From positions 1 to 45,069 of the forward strand of contig JACCSP010000317.1 in NCBI GenBank assembly GCA_013812905.1: a stretch of DNA of 45,069 bases, in the 5' to 3' direction. The position numbers were made by a program, and so were the translations under genes. Below the pieces are notes generated by a model. The model was not told the DNA's origin. It made no database searches and saw nothing but the letters and a program-made list of their open reading frames with translations. How positions within the stretch are numbered: the first letter of the stretch is position 1; each line of letters starts with the position of its first letter. Below are positions 6,740 through 45,069 of this stretch, piece after piece. Source of the DNA: Pyrinomonadaceae bacterium. GTDB taxonomy: Bacteria; Acidobacteriota; Blastocatellia; Pyrinomonadales; Pyrinomonadaceae.

Positions 6740-6833
6740 AGTCCAAGGTCCAACATCCAACACCCAAAGACGATTTGGATTCGCGGACTTTGGACCTTGG
6801 ACCTTGGACCTTGGACTTTTGATTTTGGACCTA
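6740..6833. repeat. Heptad repeat element (GGACCTT type) forming an imperfect long inverted repeat, abutting the fabI start codon
   Basis: Right arm GGACTTT-GGACCTT-GGACCTT-GGACCTT-GGACTTT-TGATTTT-GGACCTA (6785-6833). Left arm AGTCCAAGGTCCAACATCCAACACCCAAAG (6740-6769) is complementary to 6788-6817 at 25/30 positions. Confidence 0.85.
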
Positions 6834-8649: not shown

Positions 8650-9042
8650 TTAGCTAACTTGGGAATCGAGGCTGGCTGAGAGCCACTTAAGGTAAGAGGC
8701 AGATCCGGCGGTTATTGGTAAGGCAATAATCTCGGGGGTCTCATAACTGTGAAGCGCCCGCACCTCACGCTCAACCTTTTCAAATTTCGAACGGGCCGTC
8801 TTGGCGATGAGTAAAACCTCGGTCTCACGCTCGATCATTCCCTTCCAGCGATATACGGAATTCACGTGCGGCAAGATTTGAACGCATGCAGCCAGCTGCG
8901 CGCCAACCAGCATTTCGGCGAGCCTATTCGCCTCTGCGACGTCCGCAGCGGTCATCAGTATCATGATTGGGTCCGATGATTCAGTTGTCACCCCGCTGAG
9001 TAGGCCTTTCCGCGGTGGTCCTTCACCGCGTCTCAATGTCAT
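8650..9042 (-). CDS. cutA: Divalent-cation tolerance protein CutA
   Basis: ANRLAEMLVGAQLAACVQILPHVNSVYRWKGMIERETEVLLIAKT...LHSYETPEIIALPI. N-terminal start uncertain; ORF overlaps the upstream gene by 20 nt. Confidence 0.93.
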   Translation of the reverse strand: MTLRRGEGPPRKGLLSGVTTESSDPIMILMTAADVAEANRLAEMLVGAQLAACVQILPHVNSVYRWKGMIERETEVLLIAKTARSKFEKVEREVRALHSYETPEIIALPITAGSASYLKWLSASLDSQVS

Positions 9043-9421
9043 CGCTCTCCTCGTCCTCGTCGCCCACCGTACCAGTTAGCGGTGTCGTGTCACCGCCGAA
9101 GAACGCGCTATATAGTTCCTGCGCGCGATCCAAGTCGCGCTCATCAACAAGCACCATGCTGCCTTCCGCAGTAGCGGACAGCAGGGGTGAGAGCGCGTCC
9201 GCGCCTCCCGATTTCACCATAGAGCGAATTCCATTCTGCGTTAGAATGTCGTTCACCATTTCGGCTTCGACAGGCGATCCGAGTTTGTGCAGCGGCAAGA
9301 AGCGCGCTTCGCTATCGTCGGAAGCCGTGGCGGGATTTAGACGTCCCACAAGTTCAGTGTTGTCGTCGGGACAACGCGTTATACCCGGCTGATACTCGGC
9401 TTCGCAAATAGGACAAAACAT
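9023..9421 (-). CDS. DUF2007-like putative signal-transducing protein with N-terminal zinc ribbon
   Basis: MFCPICEAEYQPGITRCPDD zinc ribbon; GSPVEAEMVNDILTQNGIRSMVKSGG...VLVDERDLDRAQELY. Confidence 0.75.
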   Translation of the reverse strand: MFCPICEAEYQPGITRCPDDNTELVGRLNPATASDDSEARFLPLHKLGSPVEAEMVNDILTQNGIRSMVKSGGADALSPLLSATAEGSMVLVDERDLDRAQELYSAFFGGDTTPLTGTVGDEDEESDDIETR

Positions 9422-9433
9422 GAACCCTCCCAG

Positions 9434-9520
9434 TGACAGGTGACAGGTGACAGGTGACAGGTGACAGGTGACAGGTGACAGGATAAAGATTTACCTGTCA
9501 CTTGTCACTTATCATCTGTC
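9434..9520. repeat. Heptad repeat element: 7 perfect TGACAGG copies plus an inverted degenerate arm
   Basis: (TGACAGG)7 at 9434-9482, spacer ATAAAGATTTA, then CCTGTCA-CTTGTCA-CTTATCA-TCTGTCG. The inverted arm encodes the end and TGA stop of pfkB; the array ends 12 bp from the next gene's start. Confidence 0.95.
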
Positions 9521-10446
9521 GCGGCCTTGCTAAATGGAATCTCTTCAAAGTGGGTCATCTTTTTGAAGGCGCGAAAGCGGTCGTTGATTTCATCGTGGGT
9601 CAGTCGTCGCACGCGTTCGGTGCCAAACTCTTCCACGTTGAATGAAGCCATCACGGAACCGAAGATCATCGCGCGCCGCATGGCTGCTTCGTCTAGTTTC
9701 TCTTGGCTGGAGAGGTAGCCCATGAAACCGCCTGCGAAAGTATCCCCCGCTCCAGTGGGATCAAAAACCGATTCGAGCGGATAGGCTGGGATTGCGAAGT
9801 AGCTCTGGGCCGTGAACAATGCCGCTCCATATTCGCCTCGCTTCACGATTAGCGCCCTCGGTCCCCATGATAGAACCGTCCTGGCCGCCTTGATGAGATT
9901 AGGAATCCCTGTTAACTGCCGCGCTTCAGCATCATTAATGATGACGACATCAACTCCCTTGATGGTGCGCAGCAGCGAATCTCTGGCCGTCTCGATCCAA
10001 AGGTTCATCGTATCGAGAGCGACCAGCTCGGCATTCGGGATTTGCTCTCGCACCTCGCGTTGCAGATCTGGCTGAATGTTTCCGAGGAAAACAAGCCGAG
10101 CTTTCTTCGAGTCCGCGGATAGTTTTGGTTTAAATTCGGCGAAGACGTTTAGTTGGGTGTCGAGGGTGTGGGCGACATTTAAATCGTAGTCGTAGCGACC
10201 TCGCCAACGAAAGGTCTTCCCGTCAGAGACACGTTCGAGATCACTGGTGTCGATACCGTGTTCATCAAATACTTCCTGTTCCGCTTCGCTAAAATCGCCG
10301 CCGACCACGCCGACAATACGAACGTTAGTGTAATAGCTGGCCGAGATCGAGAAATGAGATGCCGAACCGCCGAGCATCTGCTGGCATTTGCCAAACGGAG
10401 TTTCTACGGCGTCAAAGGCTACGGAGCCAACAACAAGGAGAGACAT
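9505..10446 (-). CDS. PfkB family carbohydrate/nucleoside kinase
   Basis: MSLLVVGSVAFDAVETP...GGSASHFSISA; C-terminal DPTGAGDTFAGGFMGYL signature. Confidence 0.93.
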   Translation of the reverse strand: MSLLVVGSVAFDAVETPFGKCQQMLGGSASHFSISASYYTNVRIVGVVGGDFSEAEQEVFDEHGIDTSDLERVSDGKTFRWRGRYDYDLNVAHTLDTQLNVFAEFKPKLSADSKKARLVFLGNIQPDLQREVREQIPNAELVALDTMNLWIETARDSLLRTIKGVDVVIINDAEARQLTGIPNLIKAARTVLSWGPRALIVKRGEYGAALFTAQSYFAIPAYPLESVFDPTGAGDTFAGGFMGYLSSQEKLDEAAMRRAMIFGSVMASFNVEEFGTERVRRLTHDEINDRFRAFKKMTHFEEIPFSKAATDDK

Positions 10447-10471
10447 GGGGGTCTTTGTTTTAACTTTTTCG

Positions 10472-10540
10472 AATCTCAAGCCTGAGATCTTAGATCTCGG
10501 ATCCGGCTTTTTGCCAACTGCCTACTGCTCTCTGCTTTCC
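10472..10540. repeat. Degenerate heptad block (ten in-register 7-mers, two sub-families)
   Basis: Plus strand: AATCTCA AGCCTGA GATCTTA GATCTCG GATCCGG CTTTTTG CCAACTG CCTACTG CTCTCTG CTTTCC. The TPR gene stop codon (10522-10524) lies inside CCTACTG. Confidence 0.6.
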
Positions 10541-27999: not shown

Positions 28000-29868
28000 C
28001 TATTCCTGATCGGGCTCAGTTCTACCTAAGCCGAACTCCGCTAGCTCCCCGAGCGATGCCATTCCACTTCCCGCCTCTGAAGAGTATATCTTGGTATCAA
28101 TGATCGGCTCATCGGCCTTTCCTACAGCGCGCGCTGATAAACCTATCTTCTTGCTCTCCGCGTCGATTCTGAGAATCTTAAATTCTATTTCCTGGCCTAG
28201 CTGGACCACGTCTTCGGGTTTGGCCACCCGTTCATCGGAAAGCTCTGATATATGACAAAGGCCTTCCAGGTTGTCGTCCAACTCTACGAACGCGCCGAAG
28301 TTTGCAAAGCGAGCGATCTTCCCACGCACTACATCGCCAGGATTGTGTTCATTCACGAATCGCTCCCACGCGTTAGGCTCAAGATCCTTGATAGAAAGCG
28401 ATAAACGACGATTTTCAGTGTCGATGCTGGTAATGATCGCATCAATCTCCTGCCCTTTTTTCAGAACCTCGCTCGGGTGTTTGATGCGCCTGGACCAGGA
28501 GATATCAGAAACGTGAACCAGTCCATCAACGCCGTCTTCGATCTCAATGAAGGCGCCGAAGTCCGTAAGGTTGCGCACCCGCCCGTGAACTCGTGTACCT
28601 ATCTGGTAACGATCATGCAGCGTCTGCCACGGGTTTTCCTGAATTTGCTTCATTCCGAGACTGATACGACGAGCCTTCGGGTCAACGCTAAGCACCTCGA
28701 CTTCAACTGGGTCGCCTGGATTAACGATCTTGCTGGGATGCTTGACGCGTTTCGACCAGCTCATTTCCGACACGTGAACGAGCCCTTCGACACCGTTTTC
28801 CAATTCGACAAAGGCACCGTAGTCAGCAACGCTGGCAATGCGGCCGCCTACTCTGGTGCCGATAGGAAAGCGTTCCTCAACACTTGACCAGGGGTCTGGC
28901 AATAGTTGTTTATAACCGAGAGAGACTCGTTCGCGGTCGCGATCGAATTTGAGAACTTTGACCTGGATGTTATCGCCAACCTTGAAGAGTTCACTCGGAT
29001 TCTGTAGGCGTCCCCACGACATATCGGTGACATGGAGCAAGCCGTCCACACCGCCGAGATCAACGAAGGCGCCATAGTCAGTCAAGTTCTTAATCTGGCC
29101 TTCCACAATAATATCTTCTTCAATCTGACCCAGTGTCTGATCTTTTCGTCCGGCGTTCTCACCTTCAATCACAGCTTTGCGGGATAACACTACGTTGGAG
29201 CGCTTCCGATTGAGCTTAATGACCTTCGCTTCAATCTCCTGGTTTCTAAGGCTGTCCAGATTGCGCACTGGTCGCACGTCGACTTGGGAGCCGGGCAAGA
29301 ATGCCGCGATGCCATCAATATCGATGCGAAGTCCGCCTTTGATGCGCTCCATTACCCTGCCTTTAACAGTCGAGCCTTCCTGATAGGCTTTCTCCAAATC
29401 GTCCCAGGCTTTCATGCGCACCGCATCCGCGCGCGATAAGACAGGCAGGCCATCGGCAGTTTCCATGCTCTTTACCAACACTTCAACTTCGTCGCCAGCT
29501 TTTACGGTGATCACGCCGTCCTCAGTAAACTCAGCGGGGTTCACGATGCCTTCTGATTTATATCCAAAATCGATGACCACACCGCGTTCACTTATTCCGA
29601 CCACTGTGCCTCGAACGACTTCGCCCTCTTGCAGCGTCGCTTGCTCTTGCTCGAATTGGTCGAGTAGTTGTCCAAAGTCGACATCGCCGGCCGGACGGGT
29701 ATCATCATCGTCCTCGGTCCGATTAGACATGGACACTAATTCCCTAGCGGGTGCGGGTGCGGGTGCGGGTGCGGGTGCGGTTTGCTGCTGAGAGACATCC
29801 GACTCACCCGAAGGTGTTTGGTCATCTGTGGCGTCGCTGTTATTCAGCTTGGGTTCTTCACTAAGCAT
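28000..29868 (-). CDS. rpsA: 30S ribosomal protein S1 (multiple S1 domains)
   Basis: Repeated S1 motifs (VVRGTVVGISERGVVIDFGYKSEGIV, GQIKNLTDYGAFVDLGGVDGLLHVTDMSW, GRIASVADYGAFVELENGVEGLVHVSEMSW, GRVRNLTDFGAFIEIEDGVDGLVHVSDISW). Confidence 0.97.
   Translation of the reverse strand: MLSEEPKLNNSDATDDQTPSGESDVSQQQTAPAPAPAPAPARELVSMSNRTEDDDDTRPAGDVDFGQLLDQFEQEQATLQEGEVVRGTVVGISERGVVIDFGYKSEGIVNPAEFTEDGVITVKAGDEVEVLVKSMETADGLPVLSRADAVRMKAWDDLEKAYQEGSTVKGRVMERIKGGLRIDIDGIAAFLPGSQVDVRPVRNLDSLRNQEIEAKVIKLNRKRSNVVLSRKAVIEGENAGRKDQTLGQIEEDIIVEGQIKNLTDYGAFVDLGGVDGLLHVTDMSWGRLQNPSELFKVGDNIQVKVLKFDRDRERVSLGYKQLLPDPWSSVEERFPIGTRVGGRIASVADYGAFVELENGVEGLVHVSEMSWSKRVKHPSKIVNPGDPVEVEVLSVDPKARRISLGMKQIQENPWQTLHDRYQIGTRVHGRVRNLTDFGAFIEIEDGVDGLVHVSDISWSRRIKHPSEVLKKGQEIDAIITSIDTENRRLSLSIKDLEPNAWERFVNEHNPGDVVRGKIARFANFGAFVELDDNLEGLCHISELSDERVAKPEDVVQLGQEIEFKILRIDAESKKIGLSARAVGKADEPIIDTKIYSSEAGSGMASLGELAEFGLGRTEPDQE
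29747..29780. repeat. In-frame hexanucleotide microsatellite (GCGGGT)5 in rpsA
   Basis: Five perfect GCGGGT copies plus GCGG; encodes the Ala-Pro run APAPAPAPAPA on the minus strand. Confidence 0.95.
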
Positions 29869-44284: not shown

Positions 44285-44335
44285 TGTCCGGACTATGTCC
44301 GGACTATTGACTTGACACCGAATCGGTCATATAAG
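44285..44335 (+). promoter_or_regulatory. Sigma70-like promoter with two 11-bp tandem activator-like boxes and an operator-like palindrome in the spacer
   Basis: (TGTCCGGACTA)x2 at 44285-44306, -35 TTGACT (44307-44312), 17-bp spacer containing ACCGA-A-TCGGT, -10 TATAAG (44330-44335). Confidence 0.6.
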
Positions 44336-44411
44336 TCTCGGCATCTCGCTGTATTCTTTCCAAACCGTTGTAGATTGCAGACGCCCTTCAACCCCCTGGA
44401 GGTGGGTACCC

Positions 44412-45069
44412 ATGAAGAAATCTCTCCTTTTAGTAGTAGCTTCTCTGTTCGTTTCCTGTTTATCTCAGGCTATCGCACAAACGCCGGACGAAATGGGTCC
44501 TCCGCGAGTGCTGTTAATCGTCCGCGAAGAAATCAAGCCAGGAATGATGCCGGCCCACAACAGGCATTCCGCCGGTTACTCCGGAATTTTTGGTAAACTC
44601 AAAACACCGAACCACCGCATCGCGATGATCCCCGTGGCGGGCAACGAGAACGAGGTGTTGTACGTCACCGCCGGCGAGTCCTTTGCCGATCTCGAGATGA
44701 TCACGAAGGAAACCGACAGGAAAATGGCGGGTAGGAACGGCACGATGGGAGCGGAACTTGCTCGCTTGGATAAGGAGGCCCCGGATCTTCACTCAGGCAT
44801 GCGGGATATGTTCGCGGTTTATCGTCCCGAGCTAAGTTTCAAGCCTGGTGTTGACATAGCCCAAATGCGATATTTCGCAATTACGACCGTGCGGGTGCGT
44901 CCCGGGCAGGATGATAACTACTCCGAGTATGTGAAAACCCTCCTTAACGCAGCGCGCGAGAAAGCGAAAGCAGAAACGCACGTGGCGGCGTATCAGGTTA
45001 TCGCGGGCATGCCCGGAACAACCTACATGTTTTTCAGGTCTATGAAGTCGCTGGCCGAATACGATCTCA
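44412..45069 (+). CDS. Secreted hypothetical protein, partial (runs off the window)
   Basis: SD CTGGAGGTGG before ATG 44412; my translation MKKSLLLVVASLFVSCLSQAIAQTPDEMGPPRVLLIVREEIKPGMMPAHNRHSAGYSGIFGKLKTPNHRIAMIPVAGNENEVLYVTAGESFADLEMITKE... open to the end. Absent from the ORF track. Confidence 0.85.
   Translation, partial: MKKSLLLVVASLFVSCLSQAIAQTPDEMGPPRVLLIVREEIKPGMMPAHNRHSAGYSGIFGKLKTPNHRIAMIPVAGNENEVLYVTAGESFADLEMITKETDRKMAGRNGTMGAELARLDKEAPDLHSGMRDMFAVYRPELSFKPGVDIAQMRYFAITTVRVRPGQDDNYSEYVKTLLNAAREKAKAETHVAAYQVIAGMPGTTYMFFRSMKSLAEYDL

Follow-up and report, generated by a model that had tools for sequence, protein, structure and literature searches.

An inverted heptameric array between pfkB and a DUF2007 gene belongs to a family of heptad hairpins in Pyrinomonadaceae

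Since 2007 an over-abundance of 7-nt repeats has been recognized in bacteria, and no cause has been accepted (PMC4692102). The heptads GGGAATC of Xanthomonas and GGGGA(C/T)T of Nostoc are intergenic, occur in arrays of 2 to 26 units and have G-quadruplex potential; they lie mostly between aligned genes and near the upstream gene, are few in divergent gaps, vary in length among close species and, in Xanthomonas, form 70-75 inverted pairs per genome in convergent orientation (PMC4692102). In Beggiatoaceae a single unit, TAACTGA, is arranged in direct arrays, inverted in one case, that for the most part immediately precede start codons (PMC4679880). Palindromes of the REP/REPIN type, associated with RAYT, follow coding regions in gaps whose flanking genes are unidirectional or convergent (PMC3733652), and PMC4692102 cites cyanobacterial heptanucleotide STRR sequences (Calothrix). 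A literature search largely outside subscription journals returned no description of heptad repeats in Acidobacteriota.

The window analyzed here, a stretch of 45,069 nucleotides from a Pyrinomonadaceae bacterium (contig JACCSP010000317.1), contains an element that is one of hundreds of heptad hairpins across this family. With the Xanthomonas and Nostoc repeats these hairpins share the period of 7, the preference for gaps between aligned genes, the vicinity of the upstream gene, the scarcity in divergent gaps and the variable length, and with those of Xanthomonas also the occurrence of inverted pairs. By contrast, Xanthomonas and Nostoc use one G-rich unit per genome, whereas Pyrinomonadaceae have many units per genome that are not G-rich, and different units are found at one and the same orthologous gap. 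Neither the TGACAGG unit of the window nor the units at the pfkB locus of its relatives contain a run of three G, which distinguishes them from G-tract units (GGGNATC or GGGGA(C/T)T). They differ from the Beggiatoaceae heptads by inverted pairs located past stop codons and, again, by the multitude of units. Their position relative to genes resembles that of REP/REPIN elements, but they have neither a conserved loop nor a conserved whole-element sequence and appear not to depend on the presence of a Y1 transposase. As 7-nt tandem units which are over-represented intergenically relative to other periods, and whose copy number differs among close relatives at the between-species level, they qualify as heptameric simple sequence repeats. 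We class them as a variant of the bacterial heptameric repeats, set apart by the pairing of inverted arrays, the multitude of units in each genome and the turnover of the unit at an orthologous site. Several different heptanucleotide units within one genome are also a feature of the Calothrix STRR sequences, a likeness at the level of description.

The element and its surroundings comprise the following features.

9023..9421, minus strand: DUF2007 gene (PF09413, E 3.5e-9); its start codon lies 12 bases past the array, and the spacer contains a Shine-Dalgarno-like GGGAGGG.
9434..9482, minus strand: seven perfect heptads, TGACAGG on the plus strand and CCTGTCA in the mRNA, forming the 3' arm of the mRNA hairpin (TRF, sequence).
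9483..9492, minus strand: short loop, ATAAAGATTT on the plus strand; identical in the relative L008 and similar in L011.
9493..9520, minus strand: four degenerate heptads, in mRNA sense GACAGAT GATAAGT GACAAGT GACAGGT, forming the 5' arm (23/27 complementary to 9456-9482).
9505..10479, minus strand: pfkB-family carbohydrate kinase gene (PF00294, E 5.9e-27), whose last four codons and TGA lie inside the degenerate arm.
6740..6832, plus strand: second heptad hairpin, unit GGTCCAA / TTGGACC, in a gap flanked by genes for an M48 peptidase and a short-chain dehydrogenase.

Tandem Repeats Finder (TRF) reported the array at 9434-9482 with period 7, 7.1 copies and 100% match, and the arms (9456-9482 and 9494-9520) are complementary at 23 of 27 positions. 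An initial annotation made from the letters alone had described seven perfect copies facing four inverted degenerate heptads, 27 pairing bases with four differences, a degenerate arm that encodes the last residues (TDDK) and the stop codon of pfkB, and a distance of 12 bp to the DUF2007 start at 9421. All of this was confirmed, and the view that the element fills the intercistronic gap and even supplies the pfkB stop codon is supported. The same annotation counted three of the four mismatches as G.U pairs on the plus strand. This is correct for that strand; however, since both genes are encoded on the minus strand, the mRNA has A.C mismatches there, and its hairpin contains three A.C and one G.U. 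The minus strand is predicted to fold with -42.7 kcal/mol (z = -4.2; none of 200 shuffles was equally stable). Over positions 9391-9560 the mRNA strand is nonetheless the worse folder (-52.9 versus -66.0 for the plus strand). A scan of the pfkB-DUF2007 gap against Rfam 15 gave nothing at or above the gathering score; below threshold it produced microRNA-precursor noise of the kind that any long stem gives. A search of the source genome for TGACAGG with up to two mismatches revealed one further place besides the array itself.

The relatives retrieved on the basis of pfkB are metagenome-assembled genomes (MAGs) of Pyrinomonadaceae (Acidobacteriota), like the source genome, and nearly all of them have the pfkB-DUF2007 pair. 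Using a strict test (arms of at least 14, lag-7 identity of at least 0.6), a heptad hairpin was detected in 15 of 29 distinct orthologous gaps. These hairpins are built from about ten different units, including GACAGGT, GGTCTTT, GTGGTCA, AGTTTCA, AAGTGAT, GTCTGGA and CGTAAAC, and both arms share the unit; their 5' arm is of the GT type in 11 cases and of the AC type in none. The other 14 gaps contain weaker heptads, different palindromes or none. Gaps of 11 nt (L018) and 10 nt (L052) have no hairpin, which indicates that the filled gap of the window reflects insertion or growth in a gap whose length can be as little as 10 nt. The nearest relative (L008/L037; pfkB identity 93%) has the window's unit and loop with four copies, and L011 has the unit at about two degenerate copies. 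At the 6740-6832 hairpin, the unit is common to all three orthologs (L235-L237) and copy numbers differ. Altogether, each of the three orthologous loci that were compared shows differences in copy number, and in L244 one arm is largely lost. The predicted variation in copy number was therefore found, between species (seven in the window, four in L008, about two in L011, none in L018 and L052), and the invariance among relatives that the initial annotation had named as a refutation did not occur. Individual copy numbers taken from MAGs carry an assembly risk; several independent assemblies concur on the variation, and a typical read is long enough to span the 49-bp array. Loci outside the Acidobacteriota retrieved with the same pfkB query are almost free of heptad hairpins. 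In L009 and L038 the DUF2007 gene was not found downstream of pfkB, and unrelated sequence stands in place of the heptads, possibly as a result of an insertion or a contig-end effect.

Genome surveys covering 0.08-1.1 Mb per genome, based on a simple longest-ORF gene caller, detected 23 intergenic lag-7 arrays in the source genome (263 kb) and 43 in the congener G015 (369 kb). Each of the other lags between 4 and 13 gave 0-1 arrays and shuffled sequences gave none; arrays at lag 14 were the lag-7 arrays again. Inverted repeats with a score of at least 14 are present in 183 of 763 gaps of G015 and in none of the shuffled gaps, and 46 are heptad-armed. When four genomes of the genus were pooled, heptad hairpins were located in 62 of 853 gaps between co-directional genes, in 8 of 211 between convergent genes and in 4 of 217 between divergent genes (co-directional versus divergent, p = 0.0015). 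Where the genes are co-directional, the 5' arm begins at a median of 6 nt past the stop codon, and 5' arms near stop codons consist of GT-only units in 38 cases as compared with AC-only units in 4. G015 (L118-L136, L157-L194) also contains many non-heptad REP-like palindromes in near-identical copies, for example GTAAAGCAAACTGTTAGTTTGCGG, AGTGGCACAGACTTTAGTCTGTG and GTAGGACAGACATTCCTGTCTGTCC.

Period 7 and the mirror arrangement persist between species, and the repeated word changes. Pattern searches with reversed-sequence controls showed that the dominant unit differs by species (GTCCAA, GTCAGT, AGTTTCA or AGTGACA), some control matches resembling another heptad unit (G020 in the AGTTTCA search, G324 in the GTCCAA search). 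AGTGACA, which is the window's unit, has 461 + 480 matches in G336, a member of another genus (L253-L272), and none in the control. Within G015, 51 of 53 units have a sibling that is identical at 6 or more of the 7 positions (after shuffling, 37.9 on average and 47 at most). Of the 17 units in the source genome, 14 are found again in G015 (after shuffling, 7.3 on average and 12 at most); this excess is less pronounced for G336 units in G015 and for the pfkB set. One small vocabulary of units recurs at unrelated loci and in several genera.

Does the hairpin act in the transcript? A selected RNA element that controls translation coupling or mRNA decay, with pairing maintained while the sequence drifts, would be compatible with the strong predicted fold, with arms that share their unit in orthologous hairpins despite some ten units, and with the preference for co-directional gaps. 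Moreover, in a fold model with 0-10 copies, the accessibility of the Shine-Dalgarno sequence falls from 0.61 to 0.29 by about four copies. Selection at the RNA level, however, predicts G.U pairs among the mismatches tolerated in the transcript. The mismatches of 88 sense-oriented hairpins comprise 50 G.U and 62 A.C (p = 0.30; 95% interval of the G.U share, 0.35-0.54), and the lack of a G.U excess argues against such selection; selection for mRNA pairing was rejected because the sense strand shows no preference for G.U. In addition, A.C mismatches are more numerous in the arm of the window than in L008, there are orthologs in which the hairpin is absent or one-armed, and copies 5-7 have almost no predicted effect. 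Modeled mRNA stability and Shine-Dalgarno accessibility are nearly flat from 4 to 10 copies because the partner arm has four heptads only. Folding of the intercistronic RNA, a check proposed in the initial annotation, predicts a strong hairpin; for the tuning of gene coupling that the annotation suggested, and for a putative phase-variable contingency repeat, the model shows an influence of copy number between zero and about four copies and hardly any beyond. By prediction the mRNA does contain a strong hairpin, whose pairing appears not to be preferentially kept for RNA; as a side effect it may lower downstream translation or stabilize the upstream message. We regard a selected RNA element as unlikely, and the case cautions that a strong, conserved-looking intercistronic hairpin is not necessarily a regulatory RNA.

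The arrays might also be binding sites for a protein, nucleoid or RNA-binding, that recognizes a 7-nt spacing: the period is fixed, the set of units is restricted and the polarity is biased, and a post-transcriptional regulator has been proposed for the Beggiatoaceae heptads (PMC4679880). Yet units are many and varied, in a single genome as well as at a single orthologous locus, and many genes have no arrays, so that we consider this role quite improbable. The stable stem past the stop codon is reminiscent of an intrinsic terminator or attenuator, but no U-tract follows it, the terminator scan of the pfkB-DUF2007 gap was empty and the gap sits within a conserved gene pair; such a function is hardly credible. 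Recurrence of units throughout the genome is what dispersed mobile palindromes of the REP/REPIN/MITE kind would produce if a transposase, for instance a RAYT (Y1 transposase), spread them. True REP-like palindromes exist alongside in these genomes, 14 of the 16 genomes examined in the genus have Y1_Tnp, and G013 of the same genus, which has no Y1_Tnp, also lacks the GTCCAA unit. In such families, however, the whole element including its loop is found at many sites. Loops of heptad hairpins with the same unit are no more alike (6.77) than those of hairpins with different units (6.73; shuffled 6.47), while near-identical siblings exist for 111 of the 133 hairpins in the same genomes that are not built from heptads. 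Hairpins that share a unit and have unrelated loops are not mobile copies, and the mobile-palindrome reading, largely refuted by this result, is very unlikely. G336 has no Y1_Tnp match and yet the most AGTGACA arrays, so that RAYT-mediated spread appears not to be required; as a requirement it was rejected on the strength of this genome and the unrelated loops. G336, in which the window's unit has about 940 matches and Y1 transposase none, is a good genome for studying the heptad hairpin class.

Taken together, four tests (G.U share, loops, order of heptad variants and the copy-number fold model) favor an origin at the DNA level. The account that we prefer, and hold with about even confidence, is that the element belongs to a family-wide set of intercistronic heptad hairpins, each made of two facing arrays of one degenerate 7-mer around a short, unrelated loop, which arise and change by slippage plus inverted copying and are tolerated between co-transcribed genes. 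A short run past the upstream stop codon would lengthen or shorten in 7-nt steps by replication slippage, as the copy changes between species suggest. Strand or template switching across the gap could then provide the reverse-complement copy, and inverted copying might at times re-homogenize the arms; template switching is described to create and maintain hairpins (PMC8794818). The arrays would be tolerated in within-operon gaps and past gene ends, and their observed rarity in divergent gaps may reflect the promoters located there. The order of heptad variants is mirrored between arms with a weak excess (0.900 versus 0.877 when permuted), which may stem from the choice of the best register and is as expected if the arms slip largely independently. 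Strictly mirrored palindromes, the product of exact inverted duplication, were rejected on this ground. Mirrored variants occur in some hairpins (L264:4385 is a single case), the overall signal is weak, and no template-switching event was seen.

Recurrence of units and GT polarity are not expected from independent slippage out of random seeds and count against slippage; the shared vocabulary and the fixed polarity stay unexplained by the account that we favor. It is conceivable, although rather unlikely, that the ends of genes receive their heptad units through an unrecognized process, possibly templated, which spreads or imposes them and is neither simple slippage nor hairpin transposition. 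Unit, period 7 and polarity would then travel between loci, loop and variant order would not, and orthologous gaps would retain the inverted pair and exchange the word. The pfkB locus offers one orthologous gap for comparison among dozens of species: period and mirror are kept, the word changes and loops stay put. Together with the unfavored mRNA strand, these properties make slippage, template switching, transposition and RNA selection separable by sequence data.

Two further repeats were noted in the window. A perfect hexamer array, (GCGGGT)5.7, at 29747-29780 lies within the minus-strand ORF 28000-29868 and probably encodes a dipeptide repeat. At 44285-44307, upstream of ORF 44312-44596, the 11-mer TGTCCGGACTA is present in two perfect copies and contains the palindrome GTCCGGAC.
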